Assembly: GCA_018242725.1 (NCBI GenBank)
Contig: JAFEBI010000001.1
Span: 129,008 to 193,007 of the forward strand
Source of the DNA: Nitrospira sp.
GTDB lineage: Bacteria; Nitrospirota; Nitrospiria; Nitrospirales; Nitrospiraceae
DNA: 64,000 nucleotides
Direction: 5' to 3'
Below are positions 7,995 through 53,592 of the stretch, piece by piece. Numbering within the stretch: position 1 is the first letter of the stretch; every line of letters starts with the position of its first letter. Made by a program: the position numbers and the translations under genes. A model generated the notes under the pieces. That model was not told the DNA's origin. It searched no databases and saw only the letters and a program-made list of their open reading frames with translations.

Positions 7995-8067
7995 CCAGAC
8001 TCGTGTCTGTATAGCTCCGTCCTTCGTCTTGACTCTCTTTTGAATCCCCCCGTAGACTGCGCAGCGT

Positions 8068-8697
8068 ATGAATACATCGCCCACAACACAGCGCCTCTCA
8101 GAGCAGTCCTCCGCTCGAACCCACTCGGCAAAGGACTTTGAGACACTGTACAGAGATCATGTGGATCTCATGTACCGTTTCGCCCACCGCTTGTGCGGGG
8201 AAGCGGAGGCTGCCAAGGATTTGGTTCAGGAGACCTTTTTGAATGCCTATCGAGGCCTCGACCGGTTCCGTGGGGATGCCCAGATTTCGACGTGGTTGTA
8301 TACAATCGCCTCGCGGGCTTGTCTCCGCATGCGCCGGAAACGGAAAGGGGCTCCCGAGCGAGAGTTATCTCTCGAGGAATTCATCCCCACGGACGACGGC
8401 GAGTTTCGGTTACAGATTCCGATCGATGGCCTGAGCCCAGAAGCCGCACTTCACAATAAGCAGTTGCGAGAAGCGCTCGACAACGCGATCGATCAACTGC
8501 CGAAGAAGTATAAAATGGTCTTGGTGCTCCGCGATATGGAAGGACTCAGCGCCAAGGAGGTAGGAACCATCATGGGGTTGAATGAACGAGCCGTGAAATC
8601 ACGTCTCCACCGAGCGCGACTATTTGTCCGTCGTCACCTCAGCGCACGAGGGCTCGGGGAACCGCTCAGTGACCATGATCACCACGGAATGAGGTAG
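8068..8697 (+). CDS. ECF-type RNA polymerase sigma factor
   Basis: 209 residues. Sigma region 2 spans about 25-90 (FETLYRDHVDLMYRFAHRL, then DLVQETFLNAYRGLDRF, then TWLYTIASR). Region 4 spans about 135-190 (LPKKYKMVLVLRDMEGLS, then VGTIMGLNERAVKSRLHRAR), the helix-turn-helix that contacts the -35 element. There is no region 1.1 or 3, which makes it an extracytoplasmic-function (group 4) sigma factor. The next gene, 17 bp downstream, is a zinc-finger anti-sigma candidate, so the pair is probably co-transcribed and autoregulated. Confidence 0.93.
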   Translation: MNTSPTTQRLSEQSSARTHSAKDFETLYRDHVDLMYRFAHRLCGEAEAAKDLVQETFLNAYRGLDRFRGDAQISTWLYTIASRACLRMRRKRKGAPERELSLEEFIPTDDGEFRLQIPIDGLSPEAALHNKQLREALDNAIDQLPKKYKMVLVLRDMEGLSAKEVGTIMGLNERAVKSRLHRARLFVRRHLSARGLGEPLSDHDHHGMR

Positions 8698-8714
8698 CAG
8701 AGGGGCTGTTCCAT

Positions 8715-9020
8715 ATGGCACAACGTCGCACGTCTACACAACAACAACCGGCATCATCGACACGGCGGAAACCGGCTCACGGGAAAGCCCGTTGCCTGCG
8801 TATCCTTCGCCAGCTGTCCGCCTATATCGACGATGAACTCTCTAGAAATATTTGCCACGAAATTCGTCGACACCTCGGTGCCTGTCCGAATTGCGAAACC
8901 TTCGTGATATCACTGCGCCAAACCGTGTCACTCTGTCGCCATAGCCCCTCGCCGCCATTATCGGCAGCGAGCCGAGCGCTGATGCGGAAAAAAATCCTGG
9001 GAACCACTCACACTCGCTAA
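8715..9020 (+). CDS. Zinc-finger (ZAS-type) anti-sigma factor, soluble
   Basis: 101 residues. The centre has the anti-sigma zinc-finger arrangement: a helix with AYIDDELS, then CHEIRRH, then the HLGACPNC motif (H-x3-C-x2-C). Unlike RseA or RsiW types there is no transmembrane helix, so it would act in the cytoplasm, possibly as a redox- or zinc-responsive inhibitor of the sigma factor encoded just upstream. The N-terminal 20 residues are low-complexity and basic. The assignment rests on motif plus neighbour. Confidence 0.8.
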   Translation: MAQRRTSTQQQPASSTRRKPAHGKARCLRILRQLSAYIDDELSRNICHEIRRHLGACPNCETFVISLRQTVSLCRHSPSPPLSAASRALMRKKILGTTHTR

Positions 9021-9046
9021 CCTCCAACAGCTTGATTAATGCCCAT

Positions 9047-10756
9047 ATGACCAAGACACATTTTCGTACATTGCTCCTCCTCTCCGGACTCCTGACCACT
9101 GTTGAGATGAACCTACCGGATATGGCCGGCGCCGCGCCGAAAGCGTCCCGCACGGCGACACAACACAAATCCGTTCATCCCTCTAGCGTCGACACCGCGT
9201 TGCGTTATGCCACGGCACTTGCGAACGGTGACAAGACCACGGTCGGCCAACTCGACTTTGCATGCCAGTACGGTTCGGTGACGGCTCTCTCTGCAAAAGT
9301 AAAATCTTCCGTTGCAAAGGAACCTTCCTATGACGAGTGTTGGAAAGCGCTCACCGTGGGACATGTTCCATTCTTGAATCGGTCGGATATCGGAATGGAT
9401 GTCCTCTGGCCCAGCACAGGTCCTCTTGTATTTTATGGAGATACGCTGGCCGGCACGCATGCCTCGGCCTTTGTCATGGATGTGCTTGGAACCTCCCCCC
9501 CAGGGACCGGCCTAGATCTGGCCGTCACCGGGAACCGCGCCATCCCAAGCGGATCCTTTCGATTGAAACCAAACGGGACGGTGATCGGAGTGCCCGCAAC
9601 GCTGGTCGACCTGACCGTTCACTACCATGACCCGCTCACCTCCCCGGTTGCGTACGGACCGGGCACGGTTCACTGGACCAGCACCATCAAGCGTGAACGC
9701 CGCGCCATCAAATCCATTACCACGCAATGGGTGGTGCTCAGCGGACTCCGATCCCATGGGTTTCCGCGCGACACCGCCGTCGTTCATCTTCCTGTGGACG
9801 CAAAATCTGATACTCCGGGTATGGTCCCCGAACGCATTCCATTCACCACTGAAAGGAGCCGAGCCCTTCCTGACTCCATCGTCTGGTGGGGTCCCACCGA
9901 CCAACCAGGCACACTGACTGCGGCAGCAGCGCGAGCTGCGACGTTTCCCGAACTCCGCGATCGTGTCGCTCTGCTCAATCGCATCCTCCTCATTGACCCA
10001 CAACAGACGGAGGCGCTCACTGTCTTAACCAAGAATCTTTATACCGTGTTGCTGCAGGACGCGGCTCGGAACCACAAGCTCCTCATCAAGGATCCTGTAC
10101 TCTCCCAGACAGTCAACGAATTCTATTGGACGATTGCCGCCGCCTCAGACCGCCTCGACCTCTCGTTGGGGATGGAGGTCGGTGGGTTTTCACAACCGAC
10201 GTCCGCGGATCTGCTGTACCGACTCTTACCGGCACTACAAACCCTCGCACGTACCCATCCTGAGCAACTGGAGCACCGCTTTCGGCTTGGAATGGCCTAT
10301 AGGTGGAACAACGATCAAGTACCGATGATTGAAACCTTTGAAGCCTTGGTCAATGAGATTCCGGCTGACCGAAAGACTCCCAAGGCTGAAGCCCTCTTAC
10401 AACTGGCCTGGTCCCGCATCAATAAGGTGGCATGGAATCGAATCCTGCATGATCCCGATAGTGTCCGAGCGTATGAAAACGCGAAGGCTTCGCTGGAACT
10501 CACTGAACGGCCGCTCGACAAGTTTCTCGCCGAATACACCATGGCCTACAGCATGATCTTCATGCCGAACTATGACGACAAAGGACAGATGCTCCACCAT
10601 CTGACCGAGGCCAAACGCTGGTTCGACGAGATCCCCGGAAAAGACGACGACGTCTGGCGCTATTTCCTCCACAGCGAGTTGCTGAAGGCCGTGCTCGACG
10701 CCGATCCAGTGTTCCAGCCGATTCTAGTGACGGCGGAGAAACCGAAGGAACAGTGA
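9047..10756 (+). CDS. Exported protein of unknown function with helical-repeat C-terminus
   Basis: About 569 residues from the ATG at 9047; an in-frame TTG at 9032 is the alternative start. A signal peptide (TLLLLSGLLTTVEM, cut near MAGAAPKA) directs it to the periplasm. The middle of the protein is beta-rich. From about residue 290 it is alpha-helical with TPR-like character (RVALLNRILLIDPQQTEAL, then HPEQLEHRFRLGMAYRW). It follows the anti-sigma gene by 26 bp and is probably in the same transcript. No enzymatic motif was recognised. It may be an envelope component controlled by the sigma factor. Confidence 0.7.
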   Translation: MTKTHFRTLLLLSGLLTTVEMNLPDMAGAAPKASRTATQHKSVHPSSVDTALRYATALANGDKTTVGQLDFACQYGSVTALSAKVKSSVAKEPSYDECWKALTVGHVPFLNRSDIGMDVLWPSTGPLVFYGDTLAGTHASAFVMDVLGTSPPGTGLDLAVTGNRAIPSGSFRLKPNGTVIGVPATLVDLTVHYHDPLTSPVAYGPGTVHWTSTIKRERRAIKSITTQWVVLSGLRSHGFPRDTAVVHLPVDAKSDTPGMVPERIPFTTERSRALPDSIVWWGPTDQPGTLTAAAARAATFPELRDRVALLNRILLIDPQQTEALTVLTKNLYTVLLQDAARNHKLLIKDPVLSQTVNEFYWTIAAASDRLDLSLGMEVGGFSQPTSADLLYRLLPALQTLARTHPEQLEHRFRLGMAYRWNNDQVPMIETFEALVNEIPADRKTPKAEALLQLAWSRINKVAWNRILHDPDSVRAYENAKASLELTERPLDKFLAEYTMAYSMIFMPNYDDKGQMLHHLTEAKRWFDEIPGKDDDVWRYFLHSELLKAVLDADPVFQPILVTAEKPKEQ

Positions 10757-48717: not shown

Positions 48718-48770
48718 TCGGAGACACAATCGGTCAGGACGCAACCTTCAATGCTTTCGACCCGGCCCAT
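48651..48770 (-). CDS. Small ORF with a duplicated gene tail (39 residues)
   Basis: The ATG at 48770 lies inside the higA coding region in another frame. The last 22 codons (FVVNLQDGNEIRIPAEFSK) match the C-terminus of the protein at 49393-50040. Seven base differences separate the two copies over 67 bp; most are synonymous, so coding function seems to have been kept for some time. There is no ribosome-binding site. It may be an expressed small protein or the relic of a partner gene. Confidence 0.4.
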   Translation of the reverse strand: MGRVESIEGCVLTDCVSEFVVNLQDGNEIRIPAEFSKMK

Positions 48771-49048
48771 GGTTTGATTTTTGATAGCTTCGAGCCTAGT
48801 GCGCGTTCGGCAACTTCCGTATCATAGGCGGCTTGCGCACGCAGCCAGTACCCGTTCGAAAGCCCAAAAAACCGGCAGAGGCGTAGGTCAGTATCGGCAG
48901 TAATAGTACGTCTCCCTGCTACTATATCGCCGATCCGCTGCGCCGGCACACCGATTTCTTTCGCCAATCGATACCGACTAATCTCCATTGGTTTCAGAAA
49001 TTCTTCCAGTAAGAGGTCTCCGGGCGTGACAGGCTTGAATTTACGCAT
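48734..49048 (-). CDS. higA: HigA-type antitoxin
   Basis: 104 residues: VTPGDLLLEEFLKPMEISRY, RLAKEIGVPAQRIGDIVAGR, ITADTDLRLCRFFGLSNGYW, the standard HigA-family Xre helix-turn-helix. It lies 12 bp downstream of the toxin gene, the toxin-first order usual for HigBA. It neutralises HigB and represses the operon. It overlaps the small ORF at 48651-48770 in another frame. Confidence 0.93.
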   Translation of the reverse strand: MRKFKPVTPGDLLLEEFLKPMEISRYRLAKEIGVPAQRIGDIVAGRRTITADTDLRLCRFFGLSNGYWLRAQAAYDTEVAERALGSKLSKIKPWAGSKALKVAS

Positions 49049-49060
49049 CGGTCTCCTCGC

Positions 49061-49339
49061 TCAATGATAGTCCACGATCTCGACATCTTCAGGTCCCGTG
49101 TCTGTCCAACGGAAACAGAGACGGAACTGATCATTAATACGGATGCTGTGCTGTCCCGCACGGTCCCATTTCAAGACTTCCAGTCGATTTCCAGGAGGAA
49201 TCCGCAAATCATTGAGCTGAGCCGCGATCTCTAATTGTCGCAGCTTGCGCCGCGCCACGGTTGCGATACTTGCGAATCGCCTGACCGGCGATCCCTTTGA
49301 AATCGCCTCCGTCTCGGCACACTTAAACGACTTGATCAC
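49061..49339 (-). CDS. higB: HigB/RelE-type mRNA interferase toxin
   Basis: 92 residues of the RelE superfamily: MIKSFKCAETEAISKG, RRKLRQLEIAAQLNDLRIPP, LEVLKWDRAGQHSIRINDQF and RLCFRWTDTGPEDVEIVDYH. It begins and ends as type II HigB proteins do. It cleaves mRNA on translating ribosomes in studied homologues. It is the first gene of the pair, with an operator-like palindrome just upstream. Confidence 0.93.
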   Translation of the reverse strand: MIKSFKCAETEAISKGSPVRRFASIATVARRKLRQLEIAAQLNDLRIPPGNRLEVLKWDRAGQHSIRINDQFRLCFRWTDTGPEDVEIVDYH

Positions 49340-49392: not shown

Positions 49393-49459
49393 CTATTTCA
49401 CTTTAGAGAACTCGGCGGGGACGCGGATCTCGTTGCCGTCTTGTAGATTGACGACAAAC
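49393..49459. repeat. 67-bp direct repeat, copy of a gene 3' end (right)
   Basis: Partner of 48651-48717; this copy is the actual 3' end of the gene at 49393-50040. Confidence 0.8.
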
Positions 49460-50040
49460 ACCGATGAGGCAGTGGGATCAAACTGTTCATACGCGAAGAG
49501 CGCCGTAAAGCGAGACCGGTAGGCCGGGCCGTTGGTTTCGTTTTTTCTCCCCCGCTCGGCTTTGCCGATGTCGATGGCCTTGATCCGCTTGGACCCTTGC
49601 TGCAGCTCGATCAGCGCACCCTCGGCAAAATACTCGTCATCGCCACAGAGCTGCACCTCGATCTCCATGTTCGGCATGTCCATCACTTTCTTGATGAACT
49701 CTTCAGGCATACGAACGTCCGTTTTGCGTTTCTTCGATTCCGCTGCCTCCTGACGGCCGAATGCTTCAAGCCGATACCGCTTCGTACGGAGGACGGCGCT
49801 TGCTCCGCAGGGATCCGTTTCTGGATCGGCGCCGACACGAGTCTCCAGCGACGCTTGCTGCAGAACCTTCTTCACCTCGTCTTGGGAATTTGCTTTTTCC
49901 ATCGGAATGCGCCCGGTTTCGAGCGCCTTGTGGGCCTCCTCAGAGGACAAATTCACATCGATCGCCCATACCGCACTCGTGCTCGCGATCAGAACTCCGA
50001 TGAGCCCACACATCAGTGTCATCTGTTTACGACAAGTCAT
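49393..50040 (-). CDS. Exported hypothetical protein
   Basis: 215 residues from the ATG at 50040 (AGAGGA upstream). A signal peptide (LMCGLIGVLIASTSAVWA) is followed by a mixed domain with a conserved Cys pair (DPCGAS and VQLCGDDEYF). The C-terminus is VFVVNLQDGNEIRVPAEFSK. No family was recognised. The ending is duplicated 740 bp away, on the other side of higBA. Confidence 0.65.
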   Translation of the reverse strand: MTCRKQMTLMCGLIGVLIASTSAVWAIDVNLSSEEAHKALETGRIPMEKANSQDEVKKVLQQASLETRVGADPETDPCGASAVLRTKRYRLEAFGRQEAAESKKRKTDVRMPEEFIKKVMDMPNMEIEVQLCGDDEYFAEGALIELQQGSKRIKAIDIGKAERGRKNETNGPAYRSRFTALFAYEQFDPTASSVFVVNLQDGNEIRVPAEFSKVK

Positions 50041-50136
50041 GGTGTCCTCTGAGTGTGTTGACGGTTGAAATCCAGCGGCTATTCTCAATATCCGACGACC
50101 AGTGAGCATTGTAGGGGAACCATTGTACCTTTGCAA

Positions 50137-50769
50137 TTACACCGCGAACCGGGGCCAGTTCGCGTAGGGCTTCCGTTGATAGAGAGATTCCACGTTTACC
50201 GGAATTTGATATGAAGCCGATTGAAGTAAGTCCGCGACAAGTTTCAACGGTAAGCCCACCACGGTGGTATAGTCGCCCTCTATTCGTTCCACTAACTCTC
50301 CACCGAGCCCTTGAATGGCATAGGACCCGGCTTTTCCGAGCGATTCCCCTGACTCAAGATACCGTTCATACCGCTCCCCTTCGTCGGGTTTCATATGGAC
50401 CGTTGCCGTTGCCACCTTGACCGTCTCGTGGTTGTGTTCACCGTTGATGAGCGCAACAGCGGTATGGACATGATGAGATCGACCGGCCAGGCCCCTCAGC
50501 ATGACCCACGCATCACCAAGGTCTCGAGGCTTCCCCAACAATCGCCCATCCAGCTCAATGACGGTATCACTGCCCAGCACGTAGGCGTGTGGATGAATCT
50601 TAGCCACTGATCGCGCTTTTTCAAGAGCGAACTGCTTGACCTGCTCGAATGGCGATAGTCCTATCGACGGATGCTCGTGGAAGTCCGACGGATAGATCTT
50701 AAAGGCCAGTCCCAGAAGGGCAAGAAGCTCGTTCCGGCGCGGTGAACTCGAGGCTAGGATCAGCTGCAT
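50137..50769 (-). CDS. maf: Maf-family nucleoside triphosphate pyrophosphatase
   Basis: 210 residues: LASSSPRRNELLALLGL (4-20), VLGSDTVIELDGRLLGKPRD (about 64-83), GRSHHVHTAV and GKAGSYAIQGLGGELVERIEGDYTTVVGLPL. These are the substrate-binding loops of Maf, which hydrolyses dTTP/UTP or modified nucleotides and is linked to septum control. The C-terminus is about 15 residues longer than usual. The start overlaps dus by 10 bp. Confidence 0.93.
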   Translation of the reverse strand: MQLILASSSPRRNELLALLGLAFKIYPSDFHEHPSIGLSPFEQVKQFALEKARSVAKIHPHAYVLGSDTVIELDGRLLGKPRDLGDAWVMLRGLAGRSHHVHTAVALINGEHNHETVKVATATVHMKPDEGERYERYLESGESLGKAGSYAIQGLGGELVERIEGDYTTVVGLPLKLVADLLQSASYQIPVNVESLYQRKPYANWPRFAV

Positions 50770-51938
50770 CGCGAAGTCAGGAGCATCGTTTCATCGACCG
50801 ATTCTTCAGATGATGACTCAAGCCCCTTCTGCGCGCTGTTCTGAAAATCTGAGAGAACTTGGTTGAGCTCCTCAACGGATGACACGCGCACCATTCGTGC
50901 GCGGAGCGCCGCGGCATGGGGGAAGCCCTTACAGTACCACCCCAAATGTTTGCGCATCCGGTAGAACTGCCGCTCTCCAAACATCGCGTGAAACTGACGG
51001 GCATGATCACGCAGTACCGCAAAGCGTTCGTCTAGCAAAACCTTCTCAGCCAGACCTGAGAGACCTTCCGTCTCAGTTGTTGCTTGGGAACGTGCGCGGA
51101 ACCGCTCCTTTGAGCGAAAGAGCCACGGCGCTCCGAGAGTCCCTCGTCCCACCAACACTCCATCAACGCCGGTCTCGTGCACGCGCATCGCAGCTTCTTC
51201 AAGGTTCTGAATATCGCCGTTTCCCAGCAGCAACGTTCCGGTCCCTTGTAGGAACGCCGCAGCACGGGCAATGGCAGGCCAGTCTGCTGCGCCACGATAC
51301 ATTTGCTTGAGCGTGCGACCATGGAGCGAAATCACCGTTGGCTTTTCCAGCAAGAGCTGCTCCAGCCAGGCTTCCACTGTCACATCTTCGTACCCGAGAC
51401 GGGTTTTCACTGAAAGCGGCACCTGTCGCCGTGGCACGGGACTCGTGGCGCCACGCTGTTGATTCATTCGTTCAAACGCGACAACCCGTGAAGACTTGAA
51501 ACCGGCCTGTCCCAGCGTGTGTCCGCTTGCCCAATCGTCAATTCCACGTCGAGCCGCCTGCATGATGGAACGGGCCAGTTCAGGAGTTCGAATGAGACCC
51601 GCGCCGGAACCGGAATTGGCCACACTTTTTGATGGGCAGCCCATGTTGATGTCCAGTCCGTCGAACCCGAGCTCGCACACGGCCTGCGCCGCGAGATAGA
51701 ACAATTCTGGATCTTTCCCATAGAGTTGAGCCACGATGGGACGCTCGACATCGCTGTAGAGAAGCGTCTCCAAATGAATCTCAGGGCCGCGGCAGACATC
51801 ATGCACGTGCGTGAATTCGGTAAAGGCAACATCCGGCTTACCTTGGCCCGCGATCACGGACCGAAATGCCGCATCGGTCACGCCGTCCATCGGTGATAAC
51901 CCGACGAGTGGTCTGGGAAGTGTCGACCAAAAGTTCAT
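50760..51938 (-). CDS. dus: tRNA-dihydrouridine synthase
   Basis: 392 residues. FMN-binding TIM barrel: LSPMDGVTDAAFR, QLYGKDPELF, DINMGCPSKSVANSGSGAGL (catalytic-region Cys-Pro loop), VPLSVKTRLGYED, ISLHGRTLKQMYRGAADW, GNGDIQNLEEA and [17 protein letters not shown]. An insertion of about 30 residues near 145-170 (SSRVVAFERMNQQRGATSPV) separates two core strands. It reduces uridines in the tRNA D-loop. It overlaps maf and follows the MNIO gene by 1 bp on the same strand. Confidence 0.93.
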   Translation of the reverse strand: MNFWSTLPRPLVGLSPMDGVTDAAFRSVIAGQGKPDVAFTEFTHVHDVCRGPEIHLETLLYSDVERPIVAQLYGKDPELFYLAAQAVCELGFDGLDINMGCPSKSVANSGSGAGLIRTPELARSIMQAARRGIDDWASGHTLGQAGFKSSRVVAFERMNQQRGATSPVPRRQVPLSVKTRLGYEDVTVEAWLEQLLLEKPTVISLHGRTLKQMYRGAADWPAIARAAAFLQGTGTLLLGNGDIQNLEEAAMRVHETGVDGVLVGRGTLGAPWLFRSKERFRARSQATTETEGLSGLAEKVLLDERFAVLRDHARQFHAMFGERQFYRMRKHLGWYCKGFPHAAALRARMVRVSSVEELNQVLSDFQNSAQKGLESSSEESVDETMLLTSRCS

Positions 51939-51939
51939 C

Positions 51940-53451
51940 TTAATTTACCTGCACTGCGTCGTGAGGAGTATTGGCCGTACGATAGCCCTGTCGAAGCACT
52001 TCGGCCTCTCGCTCGGCAATCGCTTCCAACGTCGGGGCCACCTCGCGGACAAACTCTACAAATCGGTCCACCTTGAGCAAGAAGAAGTCATAGGTCCCTG
52101 AGAGCGATCGTGGTTCCTGAAACCAGAACGCGACAAGCTCAGCAAGTGGCACATGCACCTCCGTGAGTCCTCGGTAGGACTCGGGGAACATTTCCGTAAT
52201 CTCCCCACCCCAATGAAGAATCTCATGCGGAAGATAGACCGACCGATAGAGATCCAGCTCATCGACATTCGCGTGGCTTTGACTCCATTCTTTTCCATTG
52301 GGCTCTGTCCTGCCGACTACAACTCGCGCATACCGATCATAGGCTTCTGCAAGCGCCAGTTTGTCAGCGAGCGAAAGGTTGTTTCGCTCGCTGGATACGG
52401 CCGAGGATTCTGATGCTGCATCGTTCTTCACGTTCATACATCGAACGCCGGTGGAATAGCGCCGGGTGAACCGGACAAACTCCTCGACAATCAATTCCTC
52501 TGATTTCATATCAACCTCCAAGGCTATGCCCTTGAGGTTGGTCAGCTGAGGCTGAGCTAAAATCTGATCCAGCATCTCGAATAAGACCGGAGGAATGGGC
52601 GCTGCATGGGCATCCGTCCATGCTGGAAGGACACCATTGGAGTCTGACCGGACCTGTGCGGGTACGGTGTCTACCTGTGACTCATGGATAGCCACTCCCG
52701 CTACATGAATCTCAACAACACGGTCCAGAGGAAACTCGTCGAGAAAGGCTTGGACGAATGTCTCCAATGATCTCGTTCGATACGCCCCCGAATACCGAAA
52801 TACGGTCCAGAGATGACCCACATCCAAAACGAGCCCGCAGGGAGCCAATTCAGTTATAAGACGAAAGTACGTGGGGATCGGGAGAGTCCCCGCCACAAAA
52901 TAGGTGAGCGGTGGCATCTCTAGCAACAGCAGCGGCACACCCCCATTCCCTAACGCACACCGTTCATCTAAGAGCAGCTGAATCTGCCACGCATTCTCCG
53001 CCACCATTTCAGCACTGGCTGGCGTATAGAGAGGGGGGAGATAGGTTCCGAACGAATAGCCTGCCAGGTATTTTGTCGCACATTCATGATTGAGCCATGC
53101 GCTCTGAAGAATCTGCAGATGGGTGATCGCATCATCCAGCTCCTGCCGACCGGCCCAAGCACCAGCCATTTCAGGCCGAGTTATCCACAGCCCTTCACCG
53201 TGATAGGCAAGGAGACGTTGACCGACCTGCTCTCTCACCGCCTGTAATGCCGCCGGCTCCGTATAAAATACTTCAAAATAGCCGGGTGGCACTTGACGTG
53301 CTTGTAGACTTCGCAGCAAGCTAGTGAGCTCTGGGGCGTGGACATCCACGGACAGCCCTAACCCATGAACCGGAATGCGCCTCACACGACGAATAAATTC
53401 TTTGTGAGACAGGCTTGTCACCCTCATATATCCCATTTTGTCGATCGGCAA
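51940..53451 (-). CDS. DUF692/MNIO-family multinuclear iron enzyme with C-terminal extension
   Basis: 503 residues. The first 330 form an MNIO (DUF692) TIM barrel: VHGLGLSVD (28-36), His84 in AYHGEGLW, Glu178 in LLLLEMPP, Asp210/His213 in LVLDVGHLW, EIHVAGVAIHE (248-258), the DAHAAPIP loop (280-287) and ALEVD (310-314). These are the ligand positions of the two or three irons used by MbnB, TglH and other MNIOs to modify cysteines in peptides. Residues 340-503 are an extra helical domain (SVYLPHEILHWGGEITEMFP, FFLLKVDRFVEFVREVAP) of unknown type, perhaps replacing the usual separate partner protein. No precursor peptide gene is evident nearby. Confidence 0.8.
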   Translation of the reverse strand: MPIDKMGYMRVTSLSHKEFIRRVRRIPVHGLGLSVDVHAPELTSLLRSLQARQVPPGYFEVFYTEPAALQAVREQVGQRLLAYHGEGLWITRPEMAGAWAGRQELDDAITHLQILQSAWLNHECATKYLAGYSFGTYLPPLYTPASAEMVAENAWQIQLLLDERCALGNGGVPLLLLEMPPLTYFVAGTLPIPTYFRLITELAPCGLVLDVGHLWTVFRYSGAYRTRSLETFVQAFLDEFPLDRVVEIHVAGVAIHESQVDTVPAQVRSDSNGVLPAWTDAHAAPIPPVLFEMLDQILAQPQLTNLKGIALEVDMKSEELIVEEFVRFTRRYSTGVRCMNVKNDAASESSAVSSERNNLSLADKLALAEAYDRYARVVVGRTEPNGKEWSQSHANVDELDLYRSVYLPHEILHWGGEITEMFPESYRGLTEVHVPLAELVAFWFQEPRSLSGTYDFFLLKVDRFVEFVREVAPTLEAIAEREAEVLRQGYRTANTPHDAVQVN

Positions 53452-53592
53452 ACTGACGTCCTAGTGTATGCCTTCAAACCATTGAATGACAAGGATTTCA
53501 CGTCACTAAGGCCTGCAAAAACCGTCTGCTATACTTGGCATACATTGCGGCCGGGCGCGCAGATTCGTGAGAAGAAAGGACCTGGCTGAGCG

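Follow-up and report, generated by a model that had tools for sequence, protein, structure and literature searches.

To our knowledge, the multinuclear iron oxygenases (MNIOs, DUF692) that have been characterised act on peptides encoded beside them. As a rule these systems use a separate partner protein, but there are exceptions: in MovX a winged-helix domain is part of the enzyme itself, DybH works without a partner (PMC12452194, PMC12636315), and ChrH is extended by a helical bundle that Cyanobacteria encode as a protein of its own (PMC12636315). When HvfB and HvfC are joined artificially, the product is active, and the active mixed-valent cluster depends on HvfC (PMC13419390). A sequence-only reading of the locus described here had assumed a separate partner for all known MNIOs. 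This is too strict, since additional domains are built into MovX and the enzymes of the ChrH family (PMC12452194, PMC12636315, PMC13419390). Among the papers searched, none links MNIOs or DUF692 with Nitrospira.

Bacteria of the genus Nitrospira are the main nitrite oxidisers. In the window, i.e. the stretch of 64,000 nucleotides from a Nitrospira genome that was analysed, an intact ORF of 503 amino acids encodes an MNIO barrel followed by a second, C-terminal domain (Table 1). The proposal that an MNIO is fused here to an extra domain was upheld: the ORF is real, and a PF05114 match is followed by a remainder that matches no Pfam family. The gene is the only PF05114 gene that we found in its own genome. 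Among its three candidate starts, ATG 53427 is the best conserved; residues are numbered here from ATG 53436, and adding 5 gives the numbering of the 503-residue ORF.

Comparison with the described systems gives the following picture: (i) TglHI of the Pseudomonas 3-thiaglutamate system provides the best barrel fold, the best (weak) whole-domain match in TglI and seven of nine shared ligands, but the protein here is a single chain rather than two, lacks an RRE domain and has no TglA-like precursor, and His107 is replaced by Glu and Asn187 by His; (ii) ChrH, DybH and MelH likewise have a fused C-terminal helical domain, which some members encode separately (PMC12636315), whereas the extra domain here is twice the size, the protein falls below the ChrH cut-off and no CPxCGxG precursor was found in its own genome; (iii) the bufferin and oxazolin maturases BufBC and HvfBC, which use a DUF2063 partner, share the MNIO superfamily (E 2.2e-17 against BufB by hhalign profile comparison) and work as an artificial HvfBC fusion (PMC13419390), whereas our locus has ligand changes and no linked precursor, and its genome has neither DUF2063 nor DUF2282; and (iv) MovX also lacks a separate partner, but its fused winged-helix/RRE domain contrasts with the all-helical domain found here, which has no RRE strands. 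The fusion protein is a natural counterpart of the engineered HvfBC design; its extra domain is another and larger one, and its iron site is altered. Related fused or split helical domains are already known from ChrH and MelH.

Table 1. Coordinates of the fusion gene, its domains and ligand positions, and its neighbours in the window
Feature	Position	Strand	Basis or remark
MNIO-partner fusion gene	51940..53451	-	start uncertain: TTG 53451 / ATG 53436 / ATG 53427
MNIO TIM-barrel domain, residues 22-335	52432..53373	-	PF05114 match; AF2 model; TglH Z 25.5
C-terminal all-helical domain, about residues 351-493, proposed fused partner without RRE	51958..52386	-	domain model; TglI N-terminal-domain match; separate gene in L187
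H79 = TglH H71 (Fe1 ligand)	53200..53202	-	alignment
E118 at position of TglH H107 (iron-ligand His)	53083..53085	-	alignment
E173 = TglH E151 (bridging ligand)	52918..52920	-	alignment
D205 = TglH D184	52822..52824	-	alignment
H208 at position of TglH N187 (site 3)	52813..52815	-	alignment
H244 = TglH H216	52705..52707	-	alignment
D275 and H277 = TglH D229 and H231 (site 3)	52606..52614	-	alignment
E307 = TglH E258	52516..52518	-	alignment
Promoter-like pair TTGTCA-18-TACACT	53463..53492	-	consensus match only; just 5' of fusion gene
Dus, tRNA dihydrouridine synthase	50760..51938	-	next gene, same strand; operon with fusion gene presumed
Maf nucleotide pyrophosphatase	50137..50769	-	operon with fusion gene presumed
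Secreted protein, two invariant Cys, highly conserved	49393..50136	-	last gene of presumed operon

Barrel domain and iron-ligand positions

The fusion protein matches PF05114 with 42.9 bits against a cut-off of 25 over residues 63-315, and its AlphaFold2 model, built on 55 sequences, has a pLDDT of 86.7 and a pTM of 0.89. The PDB folds closest to the barrel are those of TglH and MbnB (Foldseek E 1.1e-10), with Z-scores of 25.5 for TglH, 20.6-25.5 for all MNIOs and 16.3 for the next TIM barrel; a sequence search of solved structures with the single fusion protein gave no match. By its modelled fold and its profile, the fusion protein is a divergent member of the MNIO superfamily (PF05114).

In TglH the irons are bound by H71, H107, E151, D184, N187, H216, D229, H231 and E258 (PMC10880893). 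The earlier statement that all metal-ligand motifs are present stands in that seven of these nine residues are identical in the fusion protein (H79, E173, D205, H244, D275, H277 and E307) and that all nine positions, with E118 and H208 added, carry residues capable of binding metal, but it does not stand for H107, which has become an invariant Glu (E118), or for N187, which has become an invariant His (H208). E118 is Glu in every intact member of the family and His in 16 of 16 BufB proteins, and the invariant H208 corresponds to Asn in the same 16. hhalign and two MAFFT alignments concur on the register of E118; the quicker of the two MAFFT alignments shifts the E173 and E307 columns by one relative to BufB, and the finer one places both. 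H117, beside E118, is replaced by Gln or Leu in some members of f3, and two residues past H79 there is an invariant Glu/Asp where TglH has N73. The resulting ligand set differs from those of the characterised enzymes with which it was compared, i.e. TglH, MbnB and the Histophilus protein 3BWW.

Identical ligands at all nine positions are common to the characterised MNIOs and lie outside the profile definition of PF05114, and given the fold and the profile we read the identity at seven of nine as divergence within the superfamily. Because two of the nine positions are altered, the iron content and activity of the fusion protein are not assured. In the explanation that we favour below, Glu118 and His208 would still bind iron and give a more carboxylate-rich diiron site. 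The natural exchange of His for Glu bears on the question which irons and ligands MNIOs need.

The C-terminal helical domain

The C-terminal domain comprises about 150 residues (pLDDT 84.3 when modelled separately) and is all helical with zero strands both in the model of the whole protein and in that of the domain alone; having no strands, it has no RRE (winged-helix) fold. As had been surmised, the region matches no known sequence family: none of 55 members gave a Pfam match above chance, DUF2063 included. The comparison with DUF2063, the PME-type 1 partner family, that had been proposed as a check thus returned no match; likewise, hhalign against BufC gave an E of 0.41, i.e. no sequence homology to DUF2063/BufC, and a search of the PDB by sequence found no relative.

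At the level of structure, TglI ranks 4-5 when the domain model alone is searched with Foldseek over 350,542 chains, with a weak E of 1.9, and it comes first by Z among 152 re-aligned chains with 5.7 over 126-131 of 152 residues, a weak score within the chance range for helical bundles. The other leading structural matches span about half of the domain. The part of TglI that aligns consists of residues 1-162, which is the location of its N-terminal helical domain. We think it unlikely that TglI comes out at the top for the domain by luck when TglH is the best match for the barrel; this reasoning starts from what one would expect beforehand and does not rest on a statistic of the tools. A match to a described partner family, which the sequence-only reading had named as evidence against its own proposal, was accordingly found weakly by fold (TglI) and not by sequence.

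In one relative (G068, locus L187) the two domains are split: the barrel occupies 8001-8945, and the domain is a separate overlapping gene of 156 amino acids that runs from ATG 8915 to 9385 with GGAG directly 5' of the ATG. The gene order there is MNIO followed by partner; elsewhere the two are fused. From the separate downstream gene and from TglI as the best whole-domain match, we suggest that the C-terminal domain is most likely a fused, RRE-less partner of the TglI/PME-type-2 kind and, in agreement with the earlier proposal, probably replaces the partner protein, a conclusion that is probable but not proven.

Gene neighbourhood and distribution

As the sequence-only reading had noted, Dus and Maf lie on one side of the fusion gene, downstream of it, and a CBS-PilZ gene lies on the other, upstream and divergent. 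The order CBS-PilZ/MNIO-Dus-Maf-secreted protein is almost invariant in 80 named loci of Nitrospira and relatives. Outside the family the neighbours vary, with gltBD in f3, a lipoprotein gene and cheZ in f24 and unrelated genes in f2 and f7. This variation by clade argues that the gene is not part of a portable biosynthetic cluster, and the differing neighbours (dus-maf, gltBD, lipoprotein and cheZ) argue that it has no linked precursor. Downstream of the operon, a HigBA-like toxin-antitoxin pair (window 48734-49339, minus strand) is at the same place in only one of the other Nitrospira loci checked (L084).

The fusion gene is present in 34 of 34 other sampled genomes of the genus, two of which (G020, G029) hold it in pieces, and occurs as a single copy in 107 of the 296 sampled Nitrospirota genomes. 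All sampled members of the family carry it except G294, and two others hold only part. The orthologue of N. moscoviensis is at about 4,036,437-4,037,885 of NZ_CP011801.1. Beyond the family it is found in some genomes of two further families of the order, in a single genome from another family of the class, and in the divergent clade f24. Sister genomes can differ in it: G055 and G307 bear the MNIO and G287 lacks it, and likewise G048 and G297 bear it and G058 lacks it. Outside the Nitrospirota, sampling was confined to plasmids, phages and one pattern scan; on plasmids no full-length fusion covering 80% of the query was found, and phages gave no match. Against the nearest relative, dN/dS of the fusion protein is ~0.24 (0.089/0.368), and the separate values for the barrel (0.20) and the C-terminal domain (0.28) show that both domains are under purifying selection. 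In the explanation that we favour below by a small margin, the gene would encode a core enzyme that Nitrospira and its relatives have inherited vertically.

The survey also returned loci of other kinds. In one genome of the order (G042:C31, locus L039) the fusion gene is split into two frames, by pseudogene formation or assembly error. Besides the fusion, a few Nitrospiraceae (L130, L131, L132, L133) have a canonical BufB-like MNIO with the gene of a DUF2063 partner behind it; L130 also has a small Cys-containing secreted ORF upstream and a membrane protein downstream. On a plasmid of Piscinibacter gummiphilus (L222) an MNIO gene without annotated partner lies between moeB and a carbamoyltransferase gene in what looks like an uncharacterised natural-product cluster.

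Candidate substrates and models of function

That no precursor is visible upstream was confirmed: there is none in the 141 bp in front of the gene or nearby in the window, and the window holds no credible Cys-bearing precursor gene beside the MNIO. An ORF of 74 codons on the plus strand (53365-53589) has two Cys, ends 3 nt before the CBS-PilZ gene and is similar in many relatives. It was rejected as a precursor on the grounds that dN ~ dS, that substitutions fall across codon positions and that start and frame are not kept, and we read it as conserved non-coding DNA. The conservation that mimics it is that of the intergenic region between the MNIO and CBS-PilZ genes (53452-53592), which is probably a promoter or leader. 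Neither a DUF2063 gene nor a DUF2282 bufferin precursor is present in the own genome; the latter scored above the cut-off in 4 of 39 genomes searched. Our best guess is that the gene of the substrate lies at another place in the genome. The search yielded no substrate, and for this reason the suggestion of a modifying system of a new type is not established.

Combining the structural, comparative and genomic data, we favour, by a little over even chances, a model in which the fusion protein is a one-chain MNIO holoenzyme with a fused helical partner that oxidises a peptide or protein whose gene lies elsewhere. The single chain would comprise an oxygen-dependent multi-iron TIM-barrel enzyme and, on its C-terminus, a helical partner domain; the C-terminal domain would do the job of TglI or BufC, i.e. 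hold the substrate against the barrel and tune the iron site; and the enzyme would oxidise a residue, perhaps a cysteine, in its target. A bolder version, which we put forward only tentatively, is that of a core Nitrospirota MNIO with a carboxylate-rich iron site created by the His-to-Glu change and a built-in RRE-less partner, by which a housekeeping protein would be modified in trans, outside a RiPP cluster.

Alternatively, the protein could be an MNIO-derived metalloenzyme that no longer modifies peptides and has a small molecule, RNA or nucleotides as its substrate, with the helical domain serving only as a lid or for oligomerisation. The changes from His to Glu and from Asn to His at iron-ligand positions, the conserved Glu/Asp two residues past H79, the lack of a precursor and of an RRE, and the housekeeping neighbours dus and maf would fit such a role. 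We nevertheless consider it rather unlikely, given that metal-capable residues are kept at all nine positions, that the nearest folds are by far those of peptide-modifying MNIOs, that the best match of the C-terminal domain is an MNIO partner and that the gene neighbours vary between clades.

The substrates could also be secreted two-Cys proteins that are specific for each clade. MNIO lipoprotein substrates are known (PMC12636315), and in most f24 loci the gene of a small two-Cys lipoprotein, both Cys invariant, overlaps the MNIO stop or lies closely behind it; in L180 the start of this gene (9290-9691, plus strand) overlaps the stop of the fusion gene. Clear homologues of this lipoprotein are found in f24 only, so that it was rejected as a general substrate; in the g48 genomes it lies elsewhere on the chromosome, and Nitrospira has no counterpart except the disfavoured operon protein, which makes this explanation improbable.

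That operon protein is the secreted protein encoded last in the presumed Nitrospira operon, which could be modified before export like the bufferins. It has a signal-peptide-like start, two invariant Cys and an extremely conserved mature part without Pfam match, and the order MNIO-Dus-Maf-secreted protein recurs in nearly all of the 80 Nitrospira loci. It is present in 97 of the 296 Nitrospirota genomes, and both the protein and its two Cys are kept in relatives that lack the MNIO (G036, G039, G045, G052, G058, G287 and G299), on which ground it was rejected as a dedicated substrate; in MNIO-bearing members outside the family it is encoded far from the MNIO. We therefore regard it as very improbable. 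Least plausible of all is an enzyme of the ChrH/DybH type whose precursor would have CPxCGxG at its C-terminus: although a helical bundle is likewise fused to the C-terminus of ChrH and stands alone in Cyanobacteria (PMC12636315), the ChrH model (NF050165) scores 12.6 bits, where the cut-off is 600, and does so outside the C-terminal domain, the extra domain of ChrH has ~7.8 kDa as against about 150 residues here, and the sole match to CPxCGxG followed by a stop in the DNA of the own genome (CPQCGMGL-stop) lies in no ORF of at least 30 amino acids ending there.

The one-chain model has consequences for work on the enzyme and for the view of the family. As a natural fusion, the protein offers a one-chain holoenzyme of fixed stoichiometry for structure determination and spectroscopy. 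If the bolder version of this model is true, the protein would be a constitutive protein-maturation enzyme and not a natural-product enzyme. That almost every sampled Nitrospira genome and a second clade of Nitrospirota keep an MNIO with no precursor gene linked to it suggests a general protein-modifying role.
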